From: Hysterium pulicare CBS 123377
Taxonomy: Eukaryota > Ascomycota > Dothideomycetes > Hysteriales > Hysteriaceae
NCBI GenBank assembly: GCA_000467715.1
Contig: AJFK01000116.1
Coordinates: 1-64,000 of the forward strand
Reading direction: 5' to 3'
DNA length: 64,000 bases
Below are positions 13,966-61,425 of this stretch, piece by piece (the first letter of the stretch is position 1; every line of letters starts with the position of its first letter). Position numbers and translations under genes: made by a program. The notes below the pieces were generated by a model. It saw only the letters and a list, made by a program, of their open reading frames with translations, ran no database searches and was not told the origin of the DNA.

Positions 13966-16900
13966 TCATGAAAAGAAATAAGTACTGTCCTTCAACTTGG
14001 TGACGTCGAAGTCACCCTTCTTAGGTACAGGTGGGAAGGTGAGTGGGAGCCAGATTTGGATTTTGCGGGCAGTTGTGGCTTTGCTGCGTTTCTTTTCCAC
14101 TGTGTCGACGGCGTCGGTTTTAACTTCCGATTCCGCTTCGACTTCGACATCGGCGTCCATTAGGCCCTCCTCCTCGACAGCTTCTTCAACGTCAACTCCT
14201 GCCTCGAGGTCCACTTCGTTGTTGGCCTTCGCATCCATCTCAGCGTTAGACGCCTCGATTGTGACATCTTCCTTGCCTTCCAGCTCGGCACCGAAAACCT
14301 TTTCTTGGAGCTCCCTCGCTTTGCGAGACGATCCCTGTTCTCCCAACAATGTAGGATTCGTATCCGGCACAACTGCCATTGGCTCTTTTGCTTCCTCATA
14401 GATCGAACAGGGCGTGATCATCTCTTCGCCTTTCTTTCGCTCTTCGGGGTCCTCGGACTTCAAAAGACGCTGCCGATCCGCCTCCATGACCAGCTCCTCC
14501 ATGCTTGCAGCCTTGTTGTCGAGTTTCGACCCTTTGTAGGCGAATTCCTTGCGGCGCCACTTCATTATCTGGTGCGCGGCAGGGCTTTGGGGATGGAGGG
14601 ATGCGCGGTACATGGATCCAGCGTATCTAGCTTCAAATTCCGCGCGAAGACGACCGATGATGTCTTCAGAGTGCATGCGCACAAAGGAGTCACGGAGGAT
14701 GTCATTTAGAAGTGGGATATCGGCGGCGTGAGTCCAGAAAGAGTCGTGAACGGACGCGAAAGTCAGACCCATTTCGTCGCACTTTAGGGCTGACAGGATC
14801 ATGTGCGTCGCATCGAGGGAGTGGATGAAGTTTGGTGGGAAAGCTTGTAGTTGCTTACGCTTAGACACCGCGTCGGACGAATGCGGTTGGTTGATATTGA
14901 TGGTTTGGAGGCAAGTTCTGACGCCGATCGGTTTGCTGCTACGGTAGGGTTGAACGACAGGCATCTTCAGTGGCGTCGTCCATATGACACTGGATTTGAA
15001 TCTCATGATATCCTCTGCGTACTTCGCTTTGCGGGTCTTCTCAGCCAGTTTTGATGGTTTAGGAGGCCTGAACTTTGAGTCGTAAATTTGTTGCTCATGG
15101 TTGCCGAGGAACTTCTGAGCTTTCTGGATCTGCTCTGCGGTGATTGAAGTAGTGATCCTTTCTGCGCATTGACCGAGCCAGAACTGGATTTCGTGGGCGC
15201 CGTTGAAGATTTTGGATAAGGCTTTGAAGATCTTCGCGGCGGTATAGGAAGCCAATGCGGTCAGAGAGATGCTTTCGGTCTTTTCGAAACTGGGAAACAT
15301 GTCCTTGAATACGCCCAAGACCTGCAATTTAGCACCAATGAAAGTCACGCCATAGACGTTTGTCATAACAGTACGCTTAACTACTTTCCTGGTAATTTTG
15401 CCATCGAGGAACAGGCCATACTTATGCCCCTGTTTTGCATCTTCGGCGACATCAGCTTTAACCAGTTCGGCAACACCGGTATAAATATCCTGAGGACGGT
15501 CTGCAGGCTCCAAATTTACCTGACTTGCACCAGCCTTGTCACCACCCAGCGCAGCGTAATGCTGAAGTCCATTGCACGTACCATCTTGGTGAACTGGCAG
15601 ATGGGAGACATATCGAGTAGGGTCTGGAGAGTCCAGGGCGGCTTTCAGCTCCACACAGCATGATAGGCACTGCCATGGATCTTCCGCGTTCGCCCACCAT
15701 CGATTGCCTGTGAGAGGATTTGTGGCCGAGTCGTATATTTCATGGATATTTTCCATGGTAAATTCTTCCCTCTCTTTCAGGCTGGCTTTATCAAACCCAT
15801 AAAGATTGGCGAGGTGGACCTTCAGCCAGCGTAAACCAACATTGCCCAACTCTTTCCCTCTCGCGAATCTCAAAAGACTTCGTGCAATGTCTGCACCAAT
15901 GTGATTGAGAGTGGGCGGAATTGGGTACGCTCTGCCCCGAAAATCCAGGCTGTGAGGATAATAGAACTTATCGTTCAGGTAAGCTCGAGCAACTTCCAGC
16001 TGGAAATTTTGGAAGCATCTCTGAGAATGCAGTCCGCTTTTCTCGTTGTCGATTTGCGCAACCTTCTTCAGCCATTTCTGCCGCTCTTGCCATTCTGCAT
16101 CTGCCGGGGGCTCTGGTGGACGTTCCAGATCGATCTTCGCGGGAATTAGTCCGGCAAGGCCTTCACCAGCATTCCAAGCTTGAAGCATGGCTCGAAAAAC
16201 ATCTTGATTAATTTGCCATGGTGTCTTACCCAGTACGTCAAGTCCCGCAAAAACTTTGTCCATATCTCCCCTCTCGGTTGCGGATATGGCGTAAGCTCTC
16301 TGAGACTCATCGCCGGATTTCGTCCGGACTACAGGTTCGGCAACCCTGTAATAGCCACCGTCCTTGAAGCCACTCCACGGCTTTGGTTCAACCAGCATGG
16401 GAAGGCGAAAAAGATGAATGCCAGTAACAGGTTCTTGCTTTATCCTCGCTGAAAGCTCGTAATGCGGCACTAAAAATCCTATTTTCTTACCCTGGAGATA
16501 ACCTTGAGTTCGTGACCATGCTGGCTGCTTGCTGGTCAGGGTCTTTCCGGTCTTGGGATCCTCACGGGTTACAGTGATAGTCGCCGATCGAAGCATTTTG
16601 TCGAGCAGAACAGCGCCGATCCTTGTCTTGATGTGGAGTGGCAGCTCATGATCATGGTTCTGCTCAAGCTGTGATACCGGTATTGACTTGGAAGATTGGG
16701 GTTTGTCGAATTTGAACTGTCCTTTACTTAATTTACCGAGCAGCTTTTGCCGTGCAAAAGCCCGCTGGAACCGAGCAGGCGAAGAATATTTGGATTGGGT
16801 CCTCGAATTAATCTCCATCTCAATCAAAGCTCCCAGTTGAGTAGCTACTTTTGAAACCCTCGTCCCACTACTGGCAGTATTGTTGTCACGGGTATCTCCA

Positions 16901-18318
16901 GCGTATGTATGTAGTAAGCATTGGATTGTCAGGGCAGAGAGTTTTTCCGGAGTAGACAATTCCATGTATGGGCCATAGAAATGGCGTTCATCCGGTTGAT
17001 TGGAACGAGATGGACTTGTCAGGACAGCTTTGACTTCCTTCATTTCCTTCCGGACCAGAGGCAGCAAATTTGAATACCACTGCCACATCAGCGCCTCCAT
17101 GGGCTTGGTTTTCAGAATACCATGAATGCCAATGTCCTGTAATTTCGCATCTTCCGCCCTCCACCGCTCGATAGAAACATCGAGTGCATTTTCTTCCATT
17201 TGTATCTGCCGCATGTATCTGTATAGATGGTCTTTTTCTTCTGGAGTACCTTCCGATTCATGAGGATAGGCAACTGTCTTTAACGGATCGAACGTTGATA
17301 ATGCTTCTTGCAGCGTCTTCAATCCTAATCCCTTCTGAGGAACAGGCTGTACCTTCAGAGACGGATCTGCAACCAATCCCTTTCCGATAGCGATTGCACG
17401 TCCAGCAGGCGTGCTTATGGGTATATCCATGTCTTCTACGACTGAGGGGTCTTCGAAATCATCCGGCTGAAACCTTATCAAGTCTTCTATTTCGGAGTTG
17501 GTGAATTCATCAGACGCCATGACTTCCTCGAATACAGACGCATCAAGATTTTTCGCGAAGTCAAGATATTTCTGGACCGTTTTTTCTTTCCGTCCACCTG
17601 TAAGCAAAGCCAAGGATGCTCGAATCATAATGACCAGACTTTGAGCATCTGGCTCAACAGCCTTGCCGACCATTTCTTTGTGAAACCAGTCTTCTAGACT
17701 TCCCAAGACCTTTGTCCTATCAGTACTCGAAGTAGCGTCCCTCGGAGCAGTCTCAAATAACGCCTGCATGTAAACGTTATGAGCGGCCACAACTTCCAGA
17801 GCCGCTGGATTGTACAGGTCGGTTAATCGTTGAACAATTGCGGCCGCTCTGTCCATCCGTCCCACTCTTAAACAAGCATGGAGATTCTGATGTAGTTCTG
17901 CGGGATCTCCGCCTATTCCGAACTGGAATTTAGCTCGAGGGGGAGCTGTGGCCAAGGAGTTGTGTATTATTAGGGGGCGAGTCGAATCCCACGAGGGTAG
18001 ACTGCTCATAGACGGATGGGTTGGGGGTTGAGAGGACCATGGTTGGGGCAGATTGAGACCCTCGAATGGAATATTATCGTATTGTGAAGGAAGGACATCG
18101 GCGGAGGTGGCTAGGGTTCGACTGGTGTTCCGGGGCGAAAGAGGTCGAGGAAGCTTTTGTCTCCTGGACTCAGGAGACTGGCCTGCCGAGACCGTTTGGG
18201 TGGCCGACCATCTCAGCTGGGCTGGACAAAGCCATGGTAAAGCCAATTGCTCGAGGACAGGCGCTGACTTCTGGAATGCATCTCGCCGTAGTCTTCGTCG
18301 TGCCACTCGCACGAGCAT
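13966..18318 (-). CDS. RPO41: Mitochondrial DNA-directed RNA polymerase
   Basis: A single uninterrupted exon encodes 1450 residues. It transcribes the mitochondrial genome and supplies primers for its replication. The start at 18318 (MLVRVARRRLRRD) gives an Arg-rich, acid-poor mitochondrial presequence; the frame is open 64 codons further upstream but lacks a better leader. The N-terminal half (residues ~150-650) is the extended domain typical of fungal mtRNAPs. The T7-like catalytic core is complete: DFRGRAYP near residue 791, motif A with the catalytic Asp in HQDGTCNGLQ near 909, motif B with KRTVMTNVYG near 979, and motif C with the second catalytic Asp in VHDSFWTHA near 1188. An acidic low-complexity insertion of about 100 residues (roughly 1300-1415) precedes the conserved C-terminal end PLTFPPVPKKGDFD...FFS. 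Identification is secure. Confidence 0.97.
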   Translation of the reverse strand: MLVRVARRRLRRDAFQKSAPVLEQLALPWLCPAQLRWSATQTVSAGQSPESRRQKLPRPLSPRNTSRTLATSADVLPSQYDNIPFEGLNLPQPWSSQPPTHPSMSSLPSWDSTRPLIIHNSLATAPPRAKFQFGIGGDPAELHQNLHACLRVGRMDRAAAIVQRLTDLYNPAALEVVAAHNVYMQALFETAPRDATSSTDRTKVLGSLEDWFHKEMVGKAVEPDAQSLVIMIRASLALLTGGRKEKTVQKYLDFAKNLDASVFEEVMASDEFTNSEIEDLIRFQPDDFEDPSVVEDMDIPISTPAGRAIAIGKGLVADPSLKVQPVPQKGLGLKTLQEALSTFDPLKTVAYPHESEGTPEEKDHLYRYMRQIQMEENALDVSIERWRAEDAKLQDIGIHGILKTKPMEALMWQWYSNLLPLVRKEMKEVKAVLTSPSRSNQPDERHFYGPYMELSTPEKLSALTIQCLLHTYAGDTRDNNTASSGTRVSKVATQLGALIEMEINSRTQSKYSSPARFQRAFARQKLLGKLSKGQFKFDKPQSSKSIPVSQLEQNHDHELPLHIKTRIGAVLLDKMLRSATITVTREDPKTGKTLTSKQPAWSRTQGYLQGKKIGFLVPHYELSARIKQEPVTGIHLFRLPMLVEPKPWSGFKDGGYYRVAEPVVRTKSGDESQRAYAISATERGDMDKVFAGLDVLGKTPWQINQDVFRAMLQAWNAGEGLAGLIPAKIDLERPPEPPADAEWQERQKWLKKVAQIDNEKSGLHSQRCFQNFQLEVARAYLNDKFYYPHSLDFRGRAYPIPPTLNHIGADIARSLLRFARGKELGNVGLRWLKVHLANLYGFDKASLKEREEFTMENIHEIYDSATNPLTGNRWWANAEDPWQCLSCCVELKAALDSPDPTRYVSHLPVHQDGTCNGLQHYAALGGDKAGASQVNLEPADRPQDIYTGVAELVKADVAEDAKQGHKYGLFLDGKITRKVVKRTVMTNVYGVTFIGAKLQVLGVFKDMFPSFEKTESISLTALASYTAAKIFKALSKIFNGAHEIQFWLGQCAERITTSITAEQIQKAQKFLGNHEQQIYDSKFRPPKPSKLAEKTRKAKYAEDIMRFKSSVIWTTPLKMPVVQPYRSSKPIGVRTCLQTININQPHSSDAVSKRKQLQAFPPNFIHSLDATHMILSALKCDEMGLTFASVHDSFWTHAADIPLLNDILRDSFVRMHSEDIIGRLRAEFEARYAGSMYRASLHPQSPAAHQIMKWRRKEFAYKGSKLDNKAASMEELVMEADRQRLLKSEDPEERKKGEEMITPCSIYEEAKEPMAVVPDTNPTLLGEQGSSRKARELQEKVFGAELEGKEDVTIEASNAEMDAKANNEVDLEAGVDVEEAVEEEGLMDADVEVEAESEVKTDAVDTVEKKRSKATTARKIQIWLPLTFPPVPKKGDFDVTKLKDSTYFFS

Positions 18319-18611
18319 CTCGAAAAGGGATTGAACGGCTGTCAAGATTTGACAAGTTATCAAATCGAAAGGACGAAGCTTCAAAAGAAAGGAAGGAATG
18401 AAATTGCAACAAAAGCGCACAAAAAACGGGATGGGCTGGATCGCTGGACGCGAGTGAAGACTTCTTGTAGAGCTCGCGAAAAATGTAAAGTCATGAAGAC
18501 CCCTGTGCACGGACTGGCCTTGGCGAGCACGTGATATTTTTCAGAAGCCTCGCGAACTTTATAACCCGCCACGATAGGTATCATTATTCGTCATATCACA
18601 CTCTCTTAGGT

Positions 18612-43555: not shown

Positions 43556-46500
43556 ATGGCCTACATAGCTCCGATCCACAGGCCGAGCAGCATCCGCCAT
43601 GCTCTTAAGTTGAACTTCCTAGCTCCAGACGATGACTGCCTTGTCGTAGCGTAAGCAAAGGATGAATGTAGAAGAGCTTCGATGTTGTAAACCACTAATT
43701 CTCCGACAGAAAAGCCAATCGACTCGAGTTCTATACCCACAGCTCCGATGGATTGTCCCTCCAACACTCGAAGGCCATTTATGGCAAGGTGACGATGTTG
43801 CAGAAGCTACGCCCTGCTACCTCTCCGACCGACCACCTCTTTGTGGGGACGGATAGATTTATGTATTTCACATTATCATGGGATTCTGAAACCAAACAGC
43901 TTCAGACTGAAAAGACGTTTGAGAGTGTAACCGACAAGGCTGCTCGGGAATCGCAGACTGGAGAGAGATGCCATATCGACCCCTCGGGAAGGTTCATGAC
44001 ACTGGAGGTCTACGAGGGAATAATAACCGTCATACCGCTCGTTCAAAGGGGAAAGAAGAGGAAGCAAGAGCCAGATATAGCACATTTGGGAGAGCCAGTA
44101 CCTACACGAATTACAGAGATGTTCGTCCGCTCATCGGCCTTCCTACAACCGAGAGATCCCCAGATAGACAAACCAAGGCTGGCACTGATCTATGAAGATT
44201 CACATACAACTGTTCGATTGAAATTCAGGGAATTGGCCTTCTCTGCCGGTGGTGGAAGCGGGGATGGAGTCGATCTCGACGACGCACCAAATGTGGAACA
44301 TCCAGAGTTAGATCTGGGGGCCAGCCATTTAATACCGATCATGCAGCCAACGTGTTCGTAACAATTTTTTTCCACCTAAATTTGCCAGAACTAACAGCTC
44401 CTAGATGGCCTTCTGATCCTGGGAGAAACATCGATATCTTATTATAACGATGCTACTAAAGAAATGAACGTGCAGCCCCTAGAGGAGGCCACCATATTCG
44501 TTGCTTGGGAACGAATAGATGGTCAACGATTTGTGCTAGCTGATGATTATGGCCAGTTGTACCTGCTTATGCTGGTCGTTGACAACAACCAGCAGGTACA
44601 AGACTGGAAACTGGACATAATTGGTCAGACCTCTCGAGCATCAGTGCTTGTGTATTTAGACGCAGGCTACATCTTCGTTGGATCACATCAAGGCGACTCT
44701 CAGGTCATCAGAATCACTGAAAGATCCATGGATATTATACAAACCTTTGCCAATATTGCCCCGATTCTTGATTTCACAATAATGGATATGGGGAATAGAT
44801 CTGGAGAAGGGCAGAGCAACGAATACTCTTCAGGCCAGGCTCGAATCGTAACGGGCAGTGGTGCTTATCAAGATGGCAGTCTTCGAAGTGTGAGGAGTGG
44901 CGTAGGGCTCGAGGACCTAGGAGTTTTGGGCGAAATGGAACATATCTCTAACCTATTTAGTCTGAAATCAGATCCTTCCTCCGACTTCCTGGATACATTA
45001 CTGGTAACCTTCGTTAACGAGTCACGCATCTTCCGATTTGACGCTGGCGGAGAGGTTGAAGAGGTGGACGAATTTCAGGGTCTGTGTTTAACAGAATCCA
45101 CTCTTGTGGCATCGAATCTACCTCATGGTCGCTTATTGCAAGTCACCGCGTCACGTGTACTGATAACTGAGCTAGATGGTGGCATGGTGGTAGCTGAATG
45201 GTCACCATCGAATGGCCAGACCATCACTGCTGCATCTGCAAACGAAGTCAATGTCCTTGTCTCTCTCGGTGGAGTCAGTCTAGTTGTCTTGGGAATCGAT
45301 GATGGCATCAAAGTAATTAAAGAGAAGAGCTATGGTGCGGACAGTCAAGTCGCTTGCATCGCCCTTCCATCTAAATCAGATTCCATTTGTTTCGTTGGAT
45401 TCTGGCAGGATTCGGCCGTTTCAGTATGCTCGCTCAATACGCTCCAAAGCATCACAAACGTAAAAATACCCGATGGGTCTGTTCCGAGATCGTTACTTCT
45501 GACAAATATCTTTGCGGACCAATCTCCAACTCTTTTCGTGGCCATGGCGGATGGTAATGTTGTTACATTCAGCGTCAACCCTACTTCACACGAGTTGTCA
45601 GGCAAGAAGAGTATCATACTCGGGACACAACAAGCGAACTTTCGCGCGCTTCCCAGAGGCGATGGGCTCTTCAATGTGTTCGCGACATGCGAACATCCGA
45701 GCTTGATTTACGGCTCTGAAGGAAGACTAGTCTATTCTGCAGTCACAGCTGAGAAAGCAACCTCAGTCTGCTCCTTTGACTCCGAAGCCTATCCTGGTGC
45801 AGTAGCCATTGCAACATCTGAAGATCTCCGAATAGCACTTGTCGATACGGAGCGAACAACTCATGTGCAGACACTACTAGTGAATGAAACTGTCCGACGA
45901 ATAGCTTATTCACCAAACCTCAAGGCATTTGGGTTGGGAACCATCAAACGAGTGCTGAAAGGTGGAGCAGAGATTCTGCTAAGCCATTTCAAGCTGGCCG
46001 ACGAGATCCTTTTCAAGGAGCTAGATACATACCCGCTCAACGAGGACGAACTCGTGGAAAGTGTCATGCGCTGTGAGTTGGATGATGGTACTGGCTCGCT
46101 TGCCGAGCGATTCGTCGTGGGTACTGCGTATCTGGACCACGAACAAGCAGTCAATGAGAGAGGGCGCGTTCTTATCTTCGAAGTCACCGAGGATCGACTG
46201 CTAAAGCTAGTTACAGAGCTGTCCACAAAGGGCGGGTGCAGGTGTCTTGGAATGGTGGAAGGTAAGATTGTTGCCGCTCTCATCAAGACCGTAAGTTCTC
46301 TTCCACTTCTCCCTCTTGTCTCACATGCCTGACATTGTCCCTAGATCATCTTATACTCCTTTGACTATCCCACTCCGAGCAAACCATACCTCACCAAACT
46401 CGCCTCCTTCCGCTGCGCCACTGCTCCCATCGACCTTTCTATCAACGGCGACGTGATCGCCATAGCAGATCTCATGAAATCCGTCTCAGTCGTACAATTC

Positions 46501-57161: not shown

Positions 57162-58105
57162 ATGGCGAGGTTACTATATTCTCTGTTTCTACTATCTTCA
57201 TCCTTAGTAATCCGAACCTCAGCAGTGGATTGCTATTCCCTCCTCGGCGAAAAGCTGGACAGTACCTACGGACCATGCAAAACAAATGGCTCAGTAAGCG
57301 GCTGCTGCGCAATAAATCGGCCGCCAGGATCCACCGACGTATGCTTAGACAGCGGTCTATGTATGGCTACAAATGGCGGCTTCATGGGAACAATTTGGAT
57401 GGATGGATGTACGGACCCTACAGGTCAAGACCCAGCGTGTCCGCATTACTGTCCAGATGGTATGAACAATCTCGAGCATACTCGCGCACAGTGTACGAGA
57501 TATATTTAGATGGATGAGAGCTGATATGCTTCTTTCCCACAGCCTCTACAAACTGGTCCGGCTACAACGAAGTTCTAGCCTGGAACATTCAGACCTGCGA
57601 TACCGGTTCCTATTGCTGTAGACCGGTGAACGACGATGCGAACTGCTGCAACAATTCTACAGCACCCCATTTCAAAACCAATGCCATAGGCGCCTTCCTC
57701 TTCGAAACCTCCACGGCTGGGAACGCAGCTTCTTCTGCTCATTCGTCCTCCACCGCGTCGCCAAATGGGGCCGTAACGACAAGTCCGGTTTCGAGCCGGA
57801 CGACAGCGACAGCATCGGCGGATGGAGCTGGTGCTTCGCAGGCTAAGGCATCCGGCGACATGTCCTGTCCGAAAGATAGGAGCGCAGTAGTTGGAGGTGT
57901 GGTTGGTGGGATGTTGGGAGCGGTATGTCTTGCGCTGTTGGGTGCTTTGGCGTACGTGGTACGCAAAGAGAAGAGTAGGTTCCCGCAGGGTTATTTGCAT
58001 AAGAAGGATACCATGTGGGAGAGGAAAGGGGAAAATTTCTATATCTCTGAGGCGGATGGGAGGGAGCTGCCTAAGGAGCTGCCCGGGGGGTCTGCTTGGA
58101 GATAA
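57162..58105 (+). CDS. Single-pass membrane protein with Cys-rich ectodomain
   Basis: Two exons (57162-57459, 57543-58105) give 286 residues. A signal peptide (MARLLYSLFLLSSSLVIRTSA) leads into a Cys-rich ectodomain of about 150 residues with many paired cysteines (GPCKTNGSVSGCCAINR, CLDSGLCMA, CPHYCPDG, CDTGSYCCRP, CCNNST) and N-glycosylation sites. A Ser/Thr/Ala-rich, probably O-glycosylated stalk (~190-225) precedes a transmembrane helix (SAVVGGVVGGMLGAVCLALLGALAYVV) followed by a basic, then charged cytosolic tail of ~48 residues. This layout is common in fungal surface proteins that may sense the cell wall or environment, but I cannot name a function. Splice phases match (GATG|GTATGA, CACAG|CC). 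Confidence 0.85.
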
Positions 58106-58352: not shown

Positions 58353-61300
58353 CTACTCCTCCTCTCCCATATTCTCAAACAAGCCCCCCAATCTCTCATC
58401 AGCTTGAATCAAAACCTCCTTCTCCACTTCCCAATCCACCCCCTCTTCCACCTTCAAAACCGCCTCCAACATACCTACACACGTCCTCAATTCCTTCTTC
58501 ACCGCTTGCAGCTCCTCGCCCCCCTTCCCCTCTTCTTCCAAACACCTGATCCAACAAATCGATACCCCTCTCATCACCTCACCTCTATGAACACTTATCC
58601 TCGGCCACGCGTTTAGAATCACACTTTGCACACCCTTAGCTGCGGCTTCTAGTAGAGGGGGATATGCAGATCCCAAAGGCTCGGAAAGAATGTTTGAGAG
58701 GAGAGGGAGGAGATGTTGGAGGTGTTTTATACTATCTATACCCATAGTTTTGAGGAGAGATGGTAAGTGCGAGAGGATTGTTGTGGCGAGATGTGGGTAA
58801 TTGGAGGGCGCGTTGTAGGCGAGAGGGGATAGGATGCCGCGGCGGAGGAGGGCGTCGAGGAACTTTTCGCGGGGGCGGTTGGGATCTTCGGAGAGGTTGG
58901 CGTTGAGGGTAGATTTCTTGAGGGTGGAGGTTTTGGTGCTGGATGGTTGTGACGTAGGGGTAGTTGAAATAGGATACATTACATCGGCTAAGGCATTGAT
59001 TGCAGGGAATGTCTTGTCTAGTAATTCTATTGATTCTTTTTCTGGGGTTAAAGTGGGCAAGTAGGTGAGAAAGGGGAAAAGAGTTTCCTCGAAGAGTTTT
59101 CCCAGTCCTGTTCGTGCAAGAAGGGGAGGCGGTGTAGATTTGAGGAGGAGTGTGAAGAGTTCACAGCCTTTGGCTTTCCATGATGTGTCTATGTCGTCCA
59201 TCATTTTCAAAATAGGGGGAACAAGTAATCCCCAATTGGCCTCGATACCCTTCGCATCCAGAGTGACCAATACCCAGCGTAAAAGGTCTATCGCATCGCC
59301 TTGCTTAGGATCTTTCCACGGTTCGGCAGCGTCCTCGTTCGGAAATTTCGTTTTCTCTTCTCTTGTCAAGGCAGCTTTATGGCCCGCTGCCGTTAGACTT
59401 GGATGAGGATTTTTCTGCGAGGACGAAAAGAGAGGTCGGATGGTCAGCTGAAGGAAATGGCTAGCGAGACGGGCGGGAAGCTCACTGTTCTTTCCTTCCG
59501 ACTTGTCTCCCTCTTTTCCGTGCAATTCGGTGTGAGCTTTGACAGTCTGGACGACTTCGGTTGGGTCGGTAATGGTTGGGTTACTGAGCTGCCAGGCCAT
59601 GACTACGTCCAGGGCATCTTTCATCCAGGGGCCAGGACGTGTGGATAGAGCCTTCGCTAGTTCTGTACCGGTGATGATGGGTTTGAAGGAGTATGCTTCC
59701 AAGATATCGAGCTTGGTGAGGTGATTAAGAAAGATAGCGTAGGGCTCATAGACAGCTATACGGCATTAATAAGTGTTAAATCTGTGAACAAGCTCGACAC
59801 TTACATTCTTTTGATCTCGAACCAGCAGCGATCTCGTACAAGAGGTTGAACAAGACCTGGCTCCTCCACGACGCGCCCCAACGTCGAATTGCCATGCCTA
59901 GGACATCTCTAGCGGTTGCATCCTCGCCAGCTTGTTTCCGGTGAGGAAACTTGATCCTGGTGTAACATTCATCCTTGAGGTGCCGAATCTCTTCCGAGTT
60001 TTTAAGACTCAAAGTGATCACGTCGCAGACCTTGTTAGGTGCCTTAATTCCCTCCCGAGCCACCAGGAATGCAACATATGGAGGTTGCCTACCTACCTTT
60101 GGAGGTGGAGGAAGGGGGGCATCGGCCCATGGAATCATAGCTGCACAGATCCAGGCTAGATATTTCTCATCAGAACTGCGAGCCAGCGTCGTAGGTATGA
60201 TTGACAACGCTGGAGTGTCAAATGCAGACCCCAAGACTTCATACACACATGAGTATGCTGTTTTCAAGTAAGCTACATCTGGAGTGTAATCGATCTCTCG
60301 TGTGGGATCAGTGAAGATTGTTTCGTAGAGACCGATGCGGTCGATAAGTTCTAGCGCCATGTGAGGATCGGGTCCTTTGAGCATCTTTTCCAACTCGATG
60401 CCAACCCTTTCCCGGCTAATCTTGATTTTCAAGGCTTCTCTGATTTCTTCGTTCTTCATTGCTTTCTCTGTGTCAGGATGAATAGTATAGTTCAGCCGAC
60501 TGGCGAACCGAATCAAGCGTAGGATCCGGAGTGGGTCATCCTTGAAAGTTTGATATGGCTCCAGCGGTGTCCTTATAATCTGCAATCGCATGTCTTCGAA
60601 GCCTTGACCAGTAAAGTCTTCGATTTGTGAAGTTCCCAGGTTGTAGAACATGGCATTGACGGTAGCATCTCGGCGTAAAGCATCTTCCTCCGGCGTGCCA
60701 AATTCCATCTCTGGATTTCGACTGTCATCTTTGTACGTCTCTTTTCTGAGGTTGACCAGATCTATGTCAAGGCCAAGGAGCTTAGTGGTCGTTGTCTCTA
60801 GGTTTTTGGACTTCTCTGGGTTTGCCTCGATCTTGTGGAGATCCACTGGATCCACGCCGTATTTTTCCGAGTTGCCTGGCATCTCGAGATATTCTAGCAT
60901 TTTGAGGCCGAATTGGTATCCTGTCATCTTGTTGATTGCCACATCGATATCATGGCTACCAACACGGAGTAACTTGTCTCGAACCCATCCCCCAGTCCAG
61001 CGGAGCTCAATTTTAGCTTTTGATAGCGCATCGGGTACTTTTACTTCTGACTGAGGTGGCTCCGGAACGTTGGTATCATCAATGAAAGAAGCCACATCCA
61101 GCAACAGTTGGCGCAAAGTAGTCTCGGTCTCTGTGAGCTGCAGAGTTTTGGGATTCGAATTCGGCTCCACCGCCATGGCCTTGTACGGATGAATTATGGT
61201 TGGGGAATGCCTTTCAATCTTCTGCTTTTTCGTACTTCGTTCTTCATCTGAAGTAGAAGGAGATAGAGATTTTTTCGATGACATGCAGTGAGAAGACTTC

Positions 61301-61425
61301 AAAGGTATCACGCCTATCGAATAGCTCGAGACAAGTCGAGGCGGAATATTATAATAAATTGATCCACGTCGGAGAAGTGAAGAAAGAAAAACCGGTGAAA
61401 GAGAACGAAGACTCATAAATGGCAT
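58353..61425 (-). CDS. CCA1: CCA-adding tRNA nucleotidyltransferase fused to a TTI2-like protein
   Basis: Two exons (59805-61425, 58353-59755; 49 nt intron, GTAAGT/TATAG) give 1007 residues. Residues ~145-165 hold the class II nucleotidyltransferase core (GGWVRDKLLRVGSHDIDVAI, with the catalytic DxD), then RRDATVNAMFYN and, near 295, DPLRILRLIRFASRLNY. The C-terminal part of the enzyme continues across the intron (YEPYAIFLNHLTKLDILEAYSFKP, then LAKALSTRPGPWMKDALDVVMAWQLSNP) to about residue 612. Without stop or splice signal the frame runs on into a TTI2/DUF2454-like repeat protein (LPARLASHFLQLTIRPLF near 632; LLRWVLVTLDAKGIEANWGLL; RTGLGKLFEETLFPFLTYLP; YPPLLEAAAKGVQ; GVSICWIRCLEEEG). TTI2 acts with Tel2 and Tti1 to mature PIKK kinases; CCA1 completes tRNA 3' ends. 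Three in-frame ATGs at 61425, 61416 and 61284 allow a mitochondrial (Arg-rich MSLRSLSPVFLSSLLRRG) and a cytosolic form. The gene model is firm; joint function is unknown. Confidence 0.88.

Follow-up and report, generated by a model that had tools for sequence, protein, structure and literature searches.

TTI2 forms the TTT complex together with Tti1 and Tel2; this complex is a co-chaperone of the PIKK kinases (TOR, ATM and ATR). The CCA-adding enzyme completes the 3' ends of tRNAs, and in yeast its gene CCA1 has several in-frame starts, from which mitochondrial and cytosolic forms are made. The closest solved enzymes are the e-type tRNA nucleotidyltransferases in PDB 9ns2 and 9ns4; the PDB entries name them only as cca1 and cca2, and we take them to be the Schizosaccharomyces pombe proteins. 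Their chains stop at 502 and 487 residues, respectively, with nothing long past the CCA tail. S. pombe divides the CC-adding and A-adding roles between two such enzymes (PMC7014341).

In Hysterium pulicare CBS 123377, we find a CCA-adding enzyme and TTI2 in one reading frame. Within the window, that is the whole stretch of 64,000 nucleotides that we analysed (positions 1 to 64,000 of contig AJFK01000116.1), one spliced frame holds the two conserved parts, a result that lies far beyond chance and that we regard as confirmed. The N-terminal half of the encoded protein aligns to cca1 and cca2 in single stretches. By contrast with those chains, which end shortly after the CCA tail, the protein then continues into TTI2. 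The features of the locus, all on the minus strand, are the following:

58353-61425, minus strand: fused gene for a CCA-adding enzyme and TTI2, two exons joined across a 49-nt intron
59805..61425, minus strand: exon 1, residues 1-540 and the first base of codon 541, carrying the N-terminal extension of the CCA-adding enzyme, its catalytic head and its RNA-binding core
61285..61425, minus strand: candidate mitochondrial presequence, residues 1-47 (five K/R, no D/E)
59756..59804, minus strand: intron of 49 nt with donor GTAAGT and acceptor TATAG, crossed by the cca1 alignment
58353..59755, minus strand: exon 2, from the rest of codon 541 to the stop, covering the C-terminal tail of the CCA enzyme, a short linker and TTI2
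59562..59755, minus strand: C-terminal tail of the enzyme half, whose alignment to the PDB chain of cca1 ends at residue 605
59598..59600, minus strand: in-frame ATG inside the CCA part (M593; G at both -3 and +4), the possible start of a separate 415-residue TTI2
59493..59561, minus strand: junction, residues 606-628, an uninterrupted in-frame stretch that links the end of the cca1 alignment to the start of the Tti2 profile match
58671..59492, minus strand: TTI2 (Pfam PF10521), residues 629-902, profile positions 33-277 of 279

The joined coding sequence is 3024 nt long and encodes 1007 amino acids (112.9 kDa), with its sole stop at the end. Three observations make the splice a requirement. 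Without it, the exon-1 frame hits a stop at 59776 after 549 amino acids and the TTI2 half is lost; the 49 nt of the intron are not divisible by three; and one alignment to cca1, which pairs residues 134-605 of the spliced protein with chain residues 33-485 (E = 1.4e-83), runs straight through the splice. The same holds for cca2, to which residues 134-601 align in a single stretch (chain residues 33-472, E = 7.7e-79). When exon 1 is taken alone, the alignments to cca1 and cca2 reach only residues 450 and 461, and exon 2 alone matches just the last part of the two chains. The span from 58353 to 61425 and the two-exon frame, which the initial annotation had proposed from the letters alone, are thus correct: on the minus strand, a frame of 1007 amino acids is open across the intron. 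We also scored codon usage, after training on nine open frames elsewhere in the window, and compared all six frames in windows of 40 codons. Of the 49 codon windows along the gene, 45 score best in the annotated frame, the exceptions being those that start at residues 1, 21, 381 and 921.

The enzyme half is complete, as had been claimed. Exon 1 contains both Pfam domains of the family, PolyA_pol at residues 142-285 (1.1e-21; 77.9 bits against a cut-off of 23) and PolyA_pol_RNAbd at residues 312-371 (2.9e-8; 33.8 bits against a cut-off of 22). Along this stretch lie the motifs GGWVRD at 145, DIDVA at 159, RRDATVN at 251 and DDPLR at 296, and we take the last three to be the catalytic DxD, RRDxxxN and DDxxR motifs of CCA-adding enzymes. 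By alignment, the tail encoded in exon 2 is complete as well, reaching residue 485 of the 502 in the cca1 chain. The loop YKDDSRNP at 231 fits Yxxx(x)SRxP, the flexible-loop consensus of fungal CCA-adding enzymes (PMC7014341). As judged from its sequence, nothing among the domains and motifs of this half points to a dead enzyme. The NCBIfam collection returned ten bacterial nucleotidyltransferase models for exon 1, each below its cut-off, and no matching model for exon 2.

Ahead of the catalytic head, the most amphipathic 18-mer of the candidate presequence lies at the 94th percentile of the protein, and two in-frame ATGs, M48 and M84, come after the presequence. In the two codon windows that cover residues 1-60, the coding frame is not the best of the six. 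Because the codon statistics show no preference for the coding frame here, translation may begin at M48 or M84 rather than at M1. By analogy with yeast CCA1, starts at M1 or M4 on the one hand and at M48 or M84 on the other may let a single gene provide both a mitochondrial and a nucleo-cytosolic form of the enzyme.

In the second half of the protein, exon-2 residues 88-361 match the Pfam Tti2 profile at 2.2e-68 (231.3 bits against a cut-off of 25.2), and 105 further residues follow the match before the stop. The initial annotation had seen the whole conserved region of TTI2; this stands for profile positions 33 to 277 of 279 and fails for the first 32 positions, which find no match in the protein. 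Compared with the Tti2 of the Tel2-Tti1-Tti2 complex (PF10521), the domain is thus the same, but the fusion adds a complete CCA enzyme at the N-terminus and lacks a match to the beginning of the profile. The N-terminus of TTI2 may have been shortened or replaced. In the human protein, the N-terminal half of TTI2 (residues 1-193) binds TTI1 (PMC8278493); since it is the start of the profile that is unmatched, the fused TTI2 might be altered in its TTI1-binding region. Structural comparison added little detail to this half. A phmmer search with residues 621-1007 against the PDB returned no sequences at E up to 10. A single-sequence structure model of exon 2 was helical, but poor (pLDDT 46). With this poor model, Foldseek gave 833 matches at E up to 10, the best at 1.6e-3 and none at or below 0.001. 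The best 50 of the 833, obtained with a model of this low pLDDT, comprise armadillo, HEAT, TOG and designed repeat proteins, and none of these 50 is labelled TTI2.

The two halves lie very close together. The cca1 alignment ends at residue 605 and the Tti2 profile begins at 629, which leaves 23 hydrophilic residues (606-628; 69 nt) between them. The close spacing had been recognized from the start, and the earlier estimate of about 20 residues is refined here to 23. This distance leaves no room for an intergenic region, and two ordinary genes would have to overlap. The true spacer may be shorter than 23 residues, perhaps only a handful, because the cca1 chain runs 17 residues past its aligned end (485 of 502), tag residues possibly among them, and part of residues 606-628 is probably the counterpart of this unaligned C-terminal end. 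Between the CCA and TTI2 parts there is no stop, and the joined frame remains open to the final one, in agreement with the initial annotation. That annotation had also named an unnoticed frameshift near the junction as a danger to its reading; the codon statistics show no frame change across the join. The annotated frame scores best of six in all six 40-codon windows that overlap residues 581-680, with weak scores just past the join (0.08 bits per codon at 621-660 and 0.04 at 641-680). On the minus strand of 59480-59860, AATAAA, ATTAAA, AATATA, TATAAA and TATAA are all absent. Five similar patterns are also absent from 211 bases surrounding the end of the fusion gene itself, and the lack of polyadenylation and TATA-type patterns at the junction therefore carries little weight.

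We consider it probable that the locus is a genuine in-frame gene fusion, in which one transcript gives a two-function protein of about 113 kDa whose halves mostly work independently. In this mechanism, one spliced transcript would be translated from end to end, with the N-terminal half acting as a CCA-adding tRNA nucleotidyltransferase and the C-terminal half as the TTI2 of the TTT complex. The intact fusion would be the main product, with both halves active and each keeping its own job. Such a gene probably arose when two neighbouring genes lost the stop and the spacer between them. A mitochondrial form of the protein would then carry TTI2 as a passenger.

The strongest rival to this reading is a free TTI2 that starts at M593. 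Here the products would overlap: the long transcript would give the fusion, and an internal promoter or initiation at M593 would give a free TTI2 of 415 amino acids. As the initial annotation had observed, the only nearby in-frame ATGs, M585 and M593, lie inside the CCA part. M593 (at 59600) has G at both -3 and +4, which makes its start context favourable, and no further in-frame ATG follows it until M725, within TTI2. A free TTI2 from this position would relieve the problem of a mitochondrial isoform that carries TTI2. However, M593 sits inside the conserved CCA tail and is perhaps kept for the enzyme. On a short transcript, the in-frame M585 and the out-of-frame ATGs at 59749 and 59617 could precede it. 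The two TATA forms examined, TATAAA and TATAA, are missing from the minus strand of 59480-59860, although promoters without TATA are common in fungi. On balance, we give overlapping products a small chance.

The number of copies in the genome bears on another reading. We searched the assembly (37.2 Mb in 596 contigs, possibly incomplete) with domain profiles, scoring the best candidates exon by exon. PolyA_pol and Tti2 each have one matching place in the assembly, in both cases the fusion gene, and among the candidates scored in the 37.2 Mb we did not find a second copy of either half. As a control, the same profiles were applied to 14 well-known prokaryote genomes, where PolyA_pol is present in 10 and Tti2, Tel2 and Tti1 are present in none. 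In the H. pulicare assembly, the Tel2 domain Telomere_reg-2 was found once (contig C183, 3.6e-39), as was the Tti1 domain TPR_TTI1_N (contig C11, 3.1e-77). The fusion is hence the only detected CCA-adding enzyme of the assembly. From these matches, the genome appears to encode a TTT complex, with the fusion as its only detected TTI2. Whereas S. pombe divides the work between two enzymes, we detected one here, and its loop has the consensus of fungal CCA-adding enzymes (PMC7014341). Separately, the Tti1 match (locus L004 1-2493, minus strand) has one TAG at its upstream edge, beside an open stretch of 831 residues that runs off the locus; this TAG probably belongs to an intron.

That each protein is detected once, and that these two copies are joined one to one, would also be expected under functional coupling. 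We count this reading as a special case of the fusion and judge it improbable. In this case, the CCA enzyme would be held in the TTT/R2TP chaperone, and the status of tRNA 3' ends would be coordinated with the assembly of TOR, ATM and ATR. The enzyme as a built-in TTT subunit, with the maturation or repair of tRNA 3' ends and kinase assembly held at a fixed ratio and possibly sensing each other, and with a mitochondrial isoform that takes TTI2 along, seems to us just as doubtful. In human TTT, the N-terminus of TTI2 is predicted to meet the C-terminus of TTI1 and a RUVBL2 domain (PMC8278493, PMC10178989). An enzyme attached at the N-terminus of TTI2 would thus sit near the chaperone ring. Yet fusions of neighbouring genes could well persist without any coupling. 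Furthermore, PMC10178989 lists Tti2 of fission yeast among the TTT subunits, while the cca1 and cca2 chains in the PDB stop once the CCA tail is complete. Neighbouring genes that fused and kept independent functions would account for the sequence as well as coupling or a polyprotein, the two readings offered by the initial annotation, and would do so with fewer assumptions.

The polyprotein, in which the fusion is translated and then cut into two proteins, strikes us as a rather remote prospect. It would settle the apparent conflict between an enzyme needed in mitochondria and a TTI2 whose role is in the cytosol, and the linker between the halves (residues 606-628) is hydrophilic, but this linker is short. 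Least likely of all, and very improbable, is an assembly or sequencing error that deleted a stop and a start between two overlapping or very close genes: the junction sequence is known from one assembly only, but the codon score does not change frame across the join, the locus lies in the interior of a 119-kb contig, away from the contig end, and even with a stop imagined in place, the 69 nt between the conserved parts are too little for a noncoding terminator and a promoter.

If the fusion is expressed whole, as we prefer to read it, two housekeeping proteins of unrelated pathways would be tied one to one, and the gene would offer a simple test case for the functional coupling of fused housekeeping genes. 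The fused enzyme presumably must also reach mitochondria. The join itself would serve as a clean character for fungal phylogeny. It may also bring an annotation risk, in that the other half would seem absent if a pipeline named the gene after one half. The architecture joins two known families, and domain databases may already list it for some fungi. In the open-licence PMC literature, with supplements, databases and subscription papers outside the scope of the search, we found no paper that pairs Tti2 with a CCA enzyme. The main text of PMC7014341, on eukaryotic CCA enzymes, contains neither 'fusion' nor 'Tti2'. Scans of prokaryote and viral contigs with each half gave 12, 5, 29 and 8 pattern-matching stretches and no relatives by tblastn; because these collections are prokaryotic and viral only, the scans say nothing on how widely the fusion is spread.

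Several other frames share the window. Small frames at 57162-58105 (plus strand) run towards the fusion gene and end some 250 bp short of its stop; they encode a region rich in Ser, Thr and Ala and a hydrophobic segment that, by eye, resembles a transmembrane helix; the piece at 57626-58105 (plus strand) matches no Pfam family. At 13966-18510 (minus strand), a frame of 1514 amino acids contains the domains of a single-subunit RNA polymerase (RNA_pol, 3.5e-193; RPOL_N, 2.9e-82), presumably of the mitochondrial type. Finally, a DDB1-like frame lies at 44464-46332 (plus strand); it represents one exon region of its gene, and its best PDB match is DNA damage-binding protein 1 (1.9e-77).
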